Below are positions 1 to 8,701 of a stretch of DNA of 41,423 bases, one piece after another. Location of the stretch: NCBI GenBank assembly GCA_015065685.1, contig SVPU01000014.1, forward strand, positions 1 to 41,423. Direction: 5' to 3'. The notes under the pieces were generated by a model. It was not told the origin of the DNA. It did no database searches and was given only the letters and a program-made list of their open reading frames with translations. Numbering within the stretch: the stretch's first letter is position 1; every line of letters starts with the position of its first letter. Both the position numbers and the translations under genes were made by a program. Origin of the DNA: Oscillospiraceae bacterium. Lineage in GTDB: Bacteria > Bacillota > Clostridia > Oscillospirales > Acutalibacteraceae.

Positions 1-120
1 TATACTTTCAAGCAGGCGGGTTCTAACCACTTTTGTACCAACTGTACTCATATATTTCATTCATTTGTTCCGCTAACTTGTTTTCCTTTCGGAAGTTTTT
101 CGTTAGCGAACAAGTCGCAC
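1..120 (-). mobile_element. 5' end of a group II intron (partial, runs off the window)
   Basis: On the minus strand the sequence directly after a dnaE codon starts GTGCGACTTG, which matches the conserved GUGYG 5' boundary of bacterial group II introns. The next bases fold into a 12-bp stem with one bulge: TTGTTCGCTAAC (102-113) pairs with GTTAGCGGAACAA (63-75). Inside it is a short hairpin TTCC-GAAA-GGAA with a GNRA tetraloop. This is what the start of intron domain I should look like. The dnaE frame is lost at exactly this point. Domains II-VI, any reverse transcriptase ORF and the 3' exon would lie to the left of the window, so intron class and activity cannot be judged. The alternative is another insertion or a chimeric contig end. 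Confidence 0.68.
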
Positions 121-1764
121 ATCCATTTTTAAAAGGCCTAATTCTTCAAGGCTTGTCATTGTATACTGTGTAACAACCGCCTCATCGTTTATTGATAATG
201 GCACATATTCCGCAACCGGCTTGTCAGAAATCACAACACCTGCCGCATGGGTTGAAGCGTGTCTCGGCATACCCTCTAATCTGCGGGACATATCAATCAA
301 TTCTTTGATTTGCGAATCGTTTTCATAAAGGCTTCTAAGCTCACTCGAGCCTTCTAAAGCGCGGTCAATAGTCATTCCAATTGACTGTGGAATAAGCTTT
401 GCAATTTTATCGCACGTGGCATACGGAACCTCCATTGCTCGACCAACATCACGAATAGCGCCTCTGGCTGCCATAGTGCCGAAAGTAACAATTTGCGAAA
501 CATGGTCGCTTCCGTATTTTTCAATTACATAATCAATAACCTTTTGCCTCTTAACATAGCAAAAATCAATGTCAAAGTCGGGCATTGAAACCCTTTCAGG
601 ATTCAAAAATCTCTCGAAATAGAGGTTGTATTTTATTGGGTCAATACCTGTAATACCAATGCAATAAGCCGCAAGACTTGCTGCACCAGAGCCTCTTCCT
701 GGGCCCACGGGTATTCCCTGCTTTTTTGCATATTCAATAAAATCGGCAACAATTAGATAATAGTCAACATACCCCATCTTATTTATAACCGAAAGCTCAT
801 ATTCGAGTCTTTCAGTGGCAACACTGTCGGGGTCATCTCCGTAAATTTTATATAAACCATTGTAGCATTTTTCTTTAAAATACTCAAAATGGTCGCGCTC
901 TCCAATATCAAAATGCGGTAATTTCACTTTGCCGAATTCAAACTCAACATTACACATTTCAGCGATTTTAACCGTATTACTTATCGCCTCAGGCACTTGC
1001 GAGAATAATTCAAGCATCTGCTCAGCGGTTTTTAAATAGAATTCATTTGTTTTGAATTCTAATGCAGACTCCTCATTAACGCTCGAGCCTGTTTGAACAC
1101 ATAACAAAACCTTGTGCATTTTGAAATCTCCGTGATTTATATAATGCACATCGTTTGTCGCAACAAGCGGAATACCGGTTTCTTTTGAAAGCTTGATAAT
1201 TTGAGGAATTACAATTTTTTGTTCACGAATGCCGTGGTCCTGCAGTTCCAGATAATAATTTCCTTCACCAAAGGTGTCTCTATACCACTCTGCAGTGGCC
1301 TTTGCCTTATCATAATCCCCATTTAAGATAAGCTTTGGAATTTCACCCGCAAGGCAAGCAGAAAGCGCAATGAGACCCTCGCTGTGTTTTTTTAGCAATT
1401 CTCTGTCAACACGCGGCTTGGAATAAAATCCCTCAGTAAAGCCGGCAGAAACGAGTTTTATTAAATTTTTATAACCTTCATTATTTTTGCACAGCAAAAC
1501 AAGGTGTGAATATTGGTTATCAATCCCCTTTTGCTTATCAAAACGGCTTCTTGGAGCAACATAAACCTCACAACCAATAATTGGTTTCACGCCTTTACTT
1601 TTAGCATATTTATAAAAATCAATAACGCCATACATAACACCGTGGTCAGTTATGGCAATGCTTTTTTGACCAAGCTCTGCAGCGCGGTCAATTAACTGCT
1701 TAGTGCGGCAGCAACCGTCTAAAAGACTATATTCGGTGTGCAAATGCAAATGTGCAAAATCCAT
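121..1764 (-). CDS. dnaE: DNA polymerase III alpha subunit DnaE, 5' exon only (interrupted gene)
   Basis: This is the catalytic subunit of a bacterial replicative polymerase of the DnaE type. The start is the ATG at 1764, preceded by AAAAGGGGG, and it gives the usual N-terminus with HLHTEYSLLDG (PHP domain, residues 7-17). Further motifs are GPGRGSGA (354-361) and the catalytic pair in PDFDID (395-400). After residue 548 (...GLLKMD) homology ends. The family continues FLGLRTLT, but here the frame reads five foreign residues and stops at 103. A full protein is about 1150 residues, so the C-terminal half of the polymerase domain, the tau-binding region and the OB fold are missing from the window. 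The aspartate at 548 should equal E. coli D555, the third catalytic Asp. The gene is last in the hprK operon, 32 bases behind whiA. It is probably restored by intron splicing; a dead copy is possible if a second dnaE exists. Confidence 0.9.
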
Positions 1765-4623: not shown

Positions 4624-5589
4624 TTAAAACGGGTCAACAGTTTCGGCAGCTGAATTTGTTTGCTCACCCTCGGTCATACCAAGGCGTTGCAATAAATCTT
4701 CAGCAGCATTATAGCCAAGCTTTTTCTGGCGGTTATTCATGGCCGCAACCTCAATAATTACCGCTAGGTTTCTACCAGGCTTTACAGGGATTGTAAGCGA
4801 AGGGATTTTAAGATTCAAAATTTCGGTTGTTTCGCTATCAAGTCCCATTCTGTCATACACCTTATTAACATCCCACTGTTCGATATTAATAACCAAATCA
4901 ATTTTTTCGGTAAGCTTAACAGCACCCGCACCGAAAATACGACTCGCATTAATTATACCTATTCCGCGCAGTTCAATAAAATGTCTTATATTATCGGGCG
5001 CAGTACCAACAAGCGATTTATTTGAAACTCTTCTAACCTCCACTGCATCATCTGCAATGAGACGGTGTCCGCGCTTTACAAGTTCAATCGCAGTTTCGCT
5101 TTTACCAACACCGCTTTCGCCAATCAGCAAAATACCTTCACCATAAACCTCAACCAAAACACCGTGCATTGTGATACGCGGTGCAAGATGCAAATTCAAA
5201 AATGCGATAATTGCAGATGTGAAGTTCGAAGTGGTCTCGGTTGTTCTTAGAAGCGGAACATCATATTTTTTTGCAATGGCAATATAATCTTCACTAACCT
5301 CAAGGCCGCGGCAGATAATAACTGCAACCGGCTTGCGTGAGAAAAATTCCTCAAGTCGATTGTTAGCTACATTACCGTCAAAATCCTTTAAATAACCCTC
5401 TTCGCTTTTTCCAATAATTTGAATTCGGGTTGCATCGAAATATTCAAAATAACCCGCCATATGAAGACCCGGGCGGTTAACCTCAGAAGAAGAAATTAAA
5501 ATATCCTCAGCATTCTGTGAAAGGTTTAAGCTTTCGAGTGAAAATTCATCAATAATCTTTTTTAAGGATACGGTAAATTTAGATGGCAT
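4624..5589 (-). CDS. hprK: HPr(Ser) kinase/phosphorylase
   Basis: HprK phosphorylates and dephosphorylates Ser46 of HPr in response to glycolytic intermediates and so controls CcpA-type catabolite repression in Firmicutes. The 321-residue product has the N-terminal domain (about 1-130), the HGVLVEVYGEG segment containing the family's catalytic His region (near 142), the Walker A GESGVGKS (157-164) and the HprK signature IELRGIGIIN (205-214). I chose the ATG at 5589 because AAGGGGGAG lies five bases upstream; a GTG six bases earlier falls within that site. It is the first gene of the minus-strand operon and has its own promoter at 5627-5655. No ptsH or crh is in the window. Confidence 0.97.
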   Translation of the reverse strand: MPSKFTVSLKKIIDEFSLESLNLSQNAEDILISSSEVNRPGLHMAGYFEYFDATRIQIIGKSEEGYLKDFDGNVANNRLEEFFSRKPVAVIICRGLEVSEDYIAIAKKYDVPLLRTTETTSNFTSAIIAFLNLHLAPRITMHGVLVEVYGEGILLIGESGVGKSETAIELVKRGHRLIADDAVEVRRVSNKSLVGTAPDNIRHFIELRGIGIINASRIFGAGAVKLTEKIDLVINIEQWDVNKVYDRMGLDSETTEILNLKIPSLTIPVKPGRNLAVIIEVAAMNNRQKKLGYNAAEDLLQRLGMTEGEQTNSAAETVDPF

Positions 5590-7600: not shown

Positions 7601-8701
7601 ATGAAACTCGGTATGGTAGGATTGCCAAATGTCGGCAAATCAACACTTTTTAACGCTATCACAAATGCGGGCGCTCAGTCTGCAAATTACCCTTTCTGCA
7701 CTATTGAGCCAAACGTTGGAATGGTTAGTGTTCCCGATGAAAGACTTGAAAAATTAGCAGAAATTTATAATCCCGATAAATTCACACCTGCAGTTATCGA
7801 ATTTGTTGATATTGCGGGTTTAGTTAAAGGCGCCTCAAAGGGAGAAGGTCTTGGAAATAAATTCCTCGCAAATATCCGCGAGGTTGATGCCATTGTGCAT
7901 GTTGTTCGTTGCTTTGAAAGTGATGATATAATTCATGTTGAAGGCTCTGTTGACCCACTCAGAGACATTGAAACCATCAACCTTGAACTTATCTTCTCTG
8001 ACATCGAAATGGCTCAGCGCCGTTTAGACAGAGCGACAAAAGCCTTAAAAGGTGATAAGAAAATGCAACTTGAAGTTGATTTTCTAAAGAGACTTATTGC
8101 TCACTTAGAGAACGGTCTCCCCGCCCGTTCGGTTGAGATACTTGATGAAGCAGAAACCGAAATTATAAATACAACCGCACTTCTTTCAGCAAAGCCTGTT
8201 ATATATGCTTGTAATATGAGCGAAGAAGACTTTACAAACGGAATTGAAAGCAATAATAACTACAATCTCGTGAAGGAAGTTGCCGCAAAAGAAAAAGCTG
8301 AGATTTTACCGATTTGTGCCGCTTTGGAGGCCGAAATTTCAGGGCTTGACAGCGAAGAAAAGGTAATGTTCTTGGAGGAACTCGGCCTTGAGCGTTCGGG
8401 ACTTGACAGAATGATTCAAAAATGCTACTCCCTTCTAGGTCTTATCTCATATCTTACTGCCGGCAAGCCGGAGGTTCGCGCTTGGACAATTACTAAAGGC
8501 ACAAAAGCACCTCAAGCCGCTGGTAAGATTCACACCGACTTTGAGCGTGGCTTTATCAGAGCCGAGGTTATTGCCTATAACGATTTTATCGAGTGTGGCT
8601 CAAATATGGTTGTTGCCAAAGAAAAAGGCTTAGTCAGAAGCGAAGGCAAAGAATATGTTATGCAGGATGGCGACATTGTTCTTTTCCGCTTTAATGTTTA
8701 A
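7601..8701 (+). CDS. ychF: Redox-regulated ribosome-binding ATPase YchF (OBG-like)
   Basis: YchF belongs to the Obg/TRAFAC class but prefers ATP; it binds the ribosome and is linked to stress responses. The 366-residue product is the normal length. G1 is GLPNVGKST (7-15), G3 is [10 protein letters not shown], and the G4 position reads NMSEE instead of NKxD, the substitution that gives ATP specificity in this family. A coiled-coil insert (about 130-190) and a C-terminal TGS domain (about 280-366, starting with [14 protein letters not shown]-like sequence) are present. The start is fixed by [14 protein letters not shown]. It is transcribed alone or with the small membrane-protein gene that follows. 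Confidence 0.97.

Follow-up and report, generated by a model that had tools for sequence, protein, structure and literature searches.

In an uncultured bacterium of Clostridia type, a group II intron interrupts dnaE immediately after a catalytic aspartate codon, and seven further genomes, partly of distant bacteria, carry related introns at this very border; this recurrence, which goes beyond the initial annotation of the DNA, is our main result. The case is made from sequence, and it is on this level that the insertion, the in-frame exons, both ends of the ribozyme, the covariation within it, the match to its target and the horizontal transfer are established (see below). The reading that we regard as very probable is that the element is mobile and belongs to the class B type of group II introns; it would be spliced out of the dnaE message, would retrohome to the sequence ATGGAY, and has spread horizontally among its hosts.

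The interrupted dnaE gene

The window, i.e. the whole stretch of 41,423 nucleotides that was analysed, is contig C6 of the 24 contigs of its genome (G000; 1.48 Mb, 91% complete). On the minus strand, dnaE runs from the ATG at 1764 to the GAT at 121 with no stop between, and ends in LLKMD; NCBIfam and Pfam name the product DNA polymerase III alpha, and the PHP domain is present (Table 1). The initial annotation had read the gene as intact to LLKMD (codon 548), with GTGCGAC beginning at the next base, and had aligned the last Asp with D555 of the E. coli enzyme. The minus-strand sequence bears out the former, and counting along the alignment with 2hnh, an E. coli structure of Pol III alpha, indeed places this Asp at residue 555, which we take to be the third catalytic Asp. 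From base 120 onward the strand reads GTGCGACTTGTTCGCTAA, so that the unspliced translation continues as VRLVR and then stops. GTGCG at this border conforms to the GUGYG rule for the 5' ends of group II introns, and the segment also aligns with intron 5' ends from six further dnaE genes, the one of G149 being identical in 112 of 112 bases.

The domain-I-like fold that had also been proposed for these 120 nt proved weak when taken by itself, as the folding energy is not significant (z -1.61; 13 of 200 shuffles at least as good) and Rfam at gathering thresholds finds no intron part within the window, where its single match is a tRNA. The 120 nt of the window alone fall short of proving an intron, and the proof comes from outside the window.

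Table 1. Features of the interrupted dnaE gene in the window and of the second intron copy in the same genome
Feature	Position	Strand	Basis
dnaE (DNA polymerase III alpha) 5' exon, 548 codons	121..1764	-	open-frame reading, NCBIfam, Pfam
IBS1 ATGGAT = Met-Asp codons, final six bases of 5' exon	121..126	-	sequence; pairs with EBS1 loops of related introns
Group II intron, first 120 nt, GTGCGAC..., cut by contig end	1..120	-	sequence; alignment with relatives
In-frame stop TAA closing the unspliced reading	103..105	-	translation
Second intron copy in Gly_transporter (PF03458, TRIC-type) gene	G000:C17:107829-107947 (L002, L015)		RF00029 at 107839-107934 of 107964

The other side of the intron was found in the same genome. 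RF00029, which covers domains V and VI, matches G000 twice, each time near a contig end, on C8 and on C17. The match on C8 (positions 14-109, 56.9 bits, gathering score 40) is followed, behind ..CTAT, by TTTTTGGGACTTAGAAAC, translated as FLGLRNLT, and from base 110 by 602 open DnaE codons, after which comes a pfkA-like gene. The end ..CTAT agrees with the AY rule for the 3' ends of group II introns. The initial annotation had suggested looking for domains V and VI, an AY boundary, a 3' exon starting with FLGLRTLT and a reverse transcriptase (RT) reading frame. The first three were located at the start of C8, with the exon reading FLGLRNLT; an RT is found in complete copies of relatives (see below), and in G000 itself a search with PF00078 gave no assembled RT, the middle of the intron being unassembled as well. 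As read from the two exons, the intron is inserted in phase 0 between the third catalytic Asp codon (D555 in E. coli) and FLGL.

Introns at the same codon in other genomes

Introns at the identical dnaE position were found in eight genomes: G000, G027 (Clostridia bacterium RGIG8652 from water deer cecum, of the same genus as G000), G149 (Oscillospiraceae), G150, G151 (Lachnospiraceae bacterium strain MGB1), G152 (Ruthenibacterium sp.), G153 (Lachnospiraceae) and G251. A scan for YTNAARATGGAYGTGCGMC, with one genome per species, returned 87 stretches, six of which are dnaE genes interrupted at the Asp codon, namely those of G027, G149, G150, G151, G152 and G153; the 3' part of dnaE is also present in each of the last five. 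G251, whose dnaE reads VKMD and therefore escaped the pattern, was added from the order sample described below.

In G027, one contig holds in succession LLKMD, GTGCGCC, the RT, domains V and VI, and FLGLRNLT, with both dnaE exons open; the RT has 621 residues and contains an HNH region (TIGR04416, PF00078, PF01844). This complete intron at the identical site, together with the ribozyme domains and the 3' exon on C8, upholds the original claim that a group II intron interrupts dnaE. The intron lies complete inside a single contig in five genomes: with an RT in G027 (2897 nt), G150 (2844 nt) and G152 (2796 nt), and without an open reading frame in G151 (772 nt) and G251 (683 nt). In G000, G149 and G153 the contig ends truncate the intron, and the G153 copy retains part of the RT. 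Correspondingly, TIGR04416 scores above cut-off in the three introns with an RT and partially in G153, and is absent from the two ORF-less introns. In G151, dnaE additionally contains another group II intron without a reading frame (728 nt; L135:3379-4106), which lies inside the Glu codon of YQEQVMQ.

Ribozyme structure and proposed target recognition

Seven domain V/VI sequences from the dnaE site were aligned, the first of them representing both G000 and G149, which are identical there. Standard base pairs are seen in 154 of 154 cells of this alignment, and in 7 of 22 pairs both sides have changed; when the partner is slid by one to three columns, pairing drops to 31-53%. Helices 1-3 come from the Rfam structure line and helix 4 was chosen by eye, which makes its three pairs partly circular. 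The bulged A of domain VI corresponds to the unpaired UA in the Rfam structure line for the second intron of G151, and its position is invariant across the seven dnaE-site sequences. RF02004 matches the dnaE introns of all five genomes that contain them complete, with 50.2 to 59.1 bits. The dnaE element is a mobile, probably self-splicing RNA; the dnaE transcript would most likely be spliced by the intron RNA together with the RT/maturase, to give an uninterrupted DnaE.

Each complete intron of the dnaE site has, in its 5' part, a hairpin loop with the sequence TTGTCCATT (three introns), TTATCCGTT or TTGTCCGTT. These EBS1-like loops, which were picked by eye, form six of six pairs (G-U allowed) with their own exon, ATGGAC or ATGGAT, in 5/5 cases, ATGGAY being the Met-Asp codons; the EBS1 of the G000 copy lies in the unassembled part of the intron. 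The second intron of G151, which follows ..TTTACCAAG, has a loop CTTGGT that likewise forms 6/6 pairs with its own exon, and exchanging the partners lowers the pairing: this loop forms four of six pairs with the Asp-codon exons, and the Asp-codon loops form only two or three of six with the exon of the second intron. Fully pairing 6-mers are common by chance (1 to 4 per intron for its own IBS1 versus means of 1.5 to 2.7 for random exon 6-mers, i.e. not above chance), and for this reason the weight of the EBS1 match lies in the corresponding position of the loop. Inspection by eye assigned no EBS2/IBS2 pair. In the target DNA, ATGGAY would be recognised by EBS1 of the intron, the match itself being visible in the sequences, and the intron would reach dnaE by retrohoming.

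The intron copy on C17 shows that members of the family also occupy sites other than dnaE. Its 3' exon, TCCTTGGGACTT, is similar to TTTTTGGGACTT in dnaE. A search of G000 for a second 5' intron end found none, which indicates that the 5' border and the 5' exon of this copy are unassembled. Among eight intact Gly_transporter orthologues, the closest (53% identical) reads TATATGGAT at the border, and the other seven read TTYGAY; the presence of ATGGAT in just one of eight, albeit the closest, counts against targeting of ATGGAY.

Class of the intron and relatives of its reverse transcriptase

The RT of G027 is 43.5% identical, over the whole query, to the RT of the intron B.psf.I1, and the best 15 of 200 plasmid-record RTs, including that of pBpOF4-01 (B.psf.I1), are 39-47% identical to it. 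Behind the usual end of domain VI, the G027 intron has 68 extra bases (L018:6556-6623, minus strand), of which 54 match domain VII of B.psf.I1, with none of 1000 shuffles being as good; no domain VII was seen among the other 3' ends compared, including that of the 87% identical intron of G150. According to PMC3261151, B.psf.I1 of Alkalihalophilus pseudofirmus OF4 is a class B group IIB intron with a 70-nt domain VII, a domain then known only from Bacilli, to which G027 does not belong. Domain VII in G027 and the RT likeness to B.psf.I1 point to class B type for the dnaE introns, class B, part of which has a domain VII, being used here as in PMC3261151 and PMC4424553. B.psf.I1 resembles the dnaE introns in its RT/maturase with an HNH region and in its GTGYG 5' end, and shares domain VII with G027; it differs in being plasmid-borne and located in a DNA primase gene, whereas the dnaE introns are found in chromosomal dnaE.

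In a tree of 31 RT rows, which include no class-labelled references, the RTs of dnaE introns form one clade with support of 99/100; among its seven rows, four are partial sequences from the same introns. Members of this clade at other sites may be under-sampled, because the RTs were found through dnaE. All RTs from plasmid records (n=200, E <= 1e-80) and phage records (n=5, E <= 1e-60) are less than 60% identical to the query RT, and none of 222 pattern stretches in viral contigs, examined as possible vehicles, was confirmed as its relative.

Fourteen related RT loci, with identity of at most 45%, occur in 11 of 394 genomes of the order. The 3' exons of ten of them were examined, the remaining four (L158, L160, L165, L166) having fewer than 40 open codons behind the 3' border; by Pfam, three exons are of VirD4/TraG type, two of helicase type, two of other types (L154, L155) and two without a match, and one resembles VirB4 in an NCBIfam match below cut-off. 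These exons make it likely that the wider group is carried by conjugative elements.

In G043 (57% complete, and without a dnaE match), a related intron with its 5' border near 8327 and its 3' border at 5483 on the minus strand of L019 splits recD2 (TIGR01448, 724.8 bits) within HKSQGS|E, the 3' side reading EYTCVIIPL. In G138 (L022:2864-3747), the end of a related intron directly adjoins KTLAAHV, part of a PcrA/UvrD-like helicase fragment that matches NCBIfam pcrA with 190 bits, below cut-off. Related introns at L163 and L167 are placed three bases apart in the DEFGTLPKIES motif of VirD4/TraG-type genes, their joint having been read by eye.

Horizontal transfer of the dnaE introns

The introns are far more similar to each other than are the genes which they interrupt. 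In the parts that can be seen, the introns of G000 and G149 are identical in 112/112 bases at the 5' end and 109/109 at the 3' end (221 bases), while the dnaE DNA of the two genomes is 70% identical in the 5' exon and 65% in the 3' exon (1500 nt each). Likewise, G027 and G150 have introns that are 87% identical (2449/2826) and RTs that are 92% identical (569/621), compared with 64% for the 5'-exon DNA and 61% and 53% for the two parts of DnaE. Since intron identity is so far above dnaE identity between the hosts, it is established, as judged from sequence comparison, that horizontal transfer between Clostridia has brought introns of this family into one and the same dnaE site. On a dnaE tree of 20 rows, chosen by the author and with two long branches that meet, the intron label needs six changes, four of which are forced by well-supported branches; 244 of 500 label shuffles need as few changes, which means that clustering of the label on this host tree does not exceed chance.

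Distribution of the intron and the possibility of regulated splicing

The dnaE intron is rare and patchy. Among 70 genomes of the same genus, 67 match a 220-residue piece spanning the junction and three have no match; 63 of the 67 read across the site, two are interrupted (G000 and G027), and two end at a contig edge (G036 and G046). In the order sample of 394 genomes, 380 match; spans are given for the best rows, so that the sample yields no rate. A re-search of 15 of these, which had a weak match, two matches without a strong best E-value, or no match (seven of the 14 no-match genomes), yielded six that read across, one interrupted (G251), one at a contig edge (G144, where the edge falls before the dnaE site) and seven with no match.

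Neither of the two same-genus genomes with contig edges was accepted as a carrier: the contig of G036 stops within the 3' exon, and that of G046 ends one base past the Asp codon, where the base is T, not G. This T after the Asp codon of G046 (L131:1966-1968) perhaps reflects a mixed population of intron-bearing and intron-free cells, or chance.

These counts bear on the suggestion, made in the initial annotation, of conditional polymerase expression, in which regulated splicing would set the amount of DnaE. The unspliced message stops five codons into the intron, so that the level of splicing would determine the level of DnaE, and regulatory roles for rare introns in essential genes are a matter of speculation in PMC6003770; yet a conserved regulator is not to be expected among relatives of which 63 in 67 are free of the intron, and we consider this explanation unlikely.

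Polymerases of the host and the integrity of dnaE

Bacillus relies on PolC as its main replicase and has DnaE as a second polymerase, also essential in B. subtilis. The initial annotation held that the interruption is tolerable only with efficient splicing or with compensation by a second copy of dnaE or polC. A PolC with an open frame of 1274 aa is indeed encoded on contig C7, and DnaE is thus not the sole polymerase in G000; on the other hand, neither a second intact dnaE nor an intron-free allele was found in the G000 assembly.

The presence of PolC would allow a cell with inactivated dnaE to live, and the assembly, fragmentary and probably derived from a metagenome, could conceal a mixture of intron-bearing and intron-free cells. 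We give still less credence to this pair of explanations. The exons of 548 and 602 codons are free of stops, as are those of G027, and the ORF-less copies retain the pairing of domains V and VI, all of which argues against a dead gene, as does the essentiality of DnaE beside PolC in B. subtilis; the failure to find an intron-free second allele in the G000 assembly speaks against the mixture.

Contig breaks and gene order

At its start, C8 agrees with the beginning of the G149 contig that carries the dnaE 3' exon over exactly 127 bases, of which 109 belong to the intron and 18 to the exon, and the C17 copy likewise runs for exactly 127 bases from the contig end to its departure from the dnaE copy. 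Overlaps of this length at two places indicate that the contigs break at the intron because it is a repeat. They would be expected of a de Bruijn graph with k=127, and suggest a shared or similar assembly as the origin of G000 and G149.

A chimeric contig end, with dnaE intact in the cell, had been named at the outset as what would refute the intron, and the junction does lie just 120 bases from the end of the contig. The repeat explains the ends instead: the same junction with the 112 identical intron bases recurs in G149, a related intron is complete inside one contig in each of five genomes, and on C8 the 3' exon starts exactly behind domain VI, with break points that fit the repeat; a chimera is hence most improbable. 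Equally hard to credit is that the two halves of dnaE, which in the G000 assembly are indeed on different contigs, lie far apart, a split intron joining them by trans-splicing. The halves have as neighbours a gene in the window and a gene on C8 which we take from their sequences to be whiA-like and pfkA-like, respectively, and such genes flank both the intact dnaE of the intron-less G042, in the order of C6 plus C8, and the interrupted dnaE of G152 and G251. From the match to G042, C6 and C8 are the two sides of one dnaE, with the intron between them.

Relation to known introns and significance

Group II introns are carried by the dnaN and RIR genes of Trichodesmium. A further one, in recA of Geobacillus kaustophilus, is listed as a reference entry in PMC4424553. 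Like the dnaE introns, these reside in important genes of replication or repair and must be spliced out; what sets the dnaE introns apart is the occupation of one codon border in eight genomes, with signs of horizontal transfer. Bacterial group II introns seldom interrupt housekeeping genes, according to PMC6003770 and PMC4424553, and in a survey their preference for conserved sites was not significant (PMC2814812). In the literature searched, mostly outside subscription journals, we saw no paper describing a dnaE gene with a group II intron, or a replicative polymerase in which one catalytic codon has repeatedly been occupied through horizontal transfer. Group II introns in housekeeping genes are, as such, known.

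A parallel is offered by inteins and group I introns, selfish elements that are also aimed at DNA encoding an indispensable residue; they use protein splicing or a homing endonuclease, where the dnaE introns would use RNA splicing and retrohoming. The dnaE intron appears to spread by targeting a codon whose change the cell could not tolerate: as the Asp codon is fixed by catalysis, the target is kept in relatives, and the intron would persist as a result. With moderate confidence, we view this class B-type lineage as a specialist for the catalytic Asp of DnaE, whose EBS1 would read the Met-Asp codons, and which would move between Clostridia and persist in the manner credited to inteins and to group I introns but not found for group II introns; its ORF-less descendants would splice unaided or by means of an outside maturase.

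For the assemblies of Clostridia, this means that dnaE can look broken or split due to an intron. The eight natural insertions, with and without an RT, offer a direct test of the splicing efficiency that is needed in an important gene, of whether ORF-less copies depend on help in trans, and of whether a retrohoming target is protected by codon constraint.
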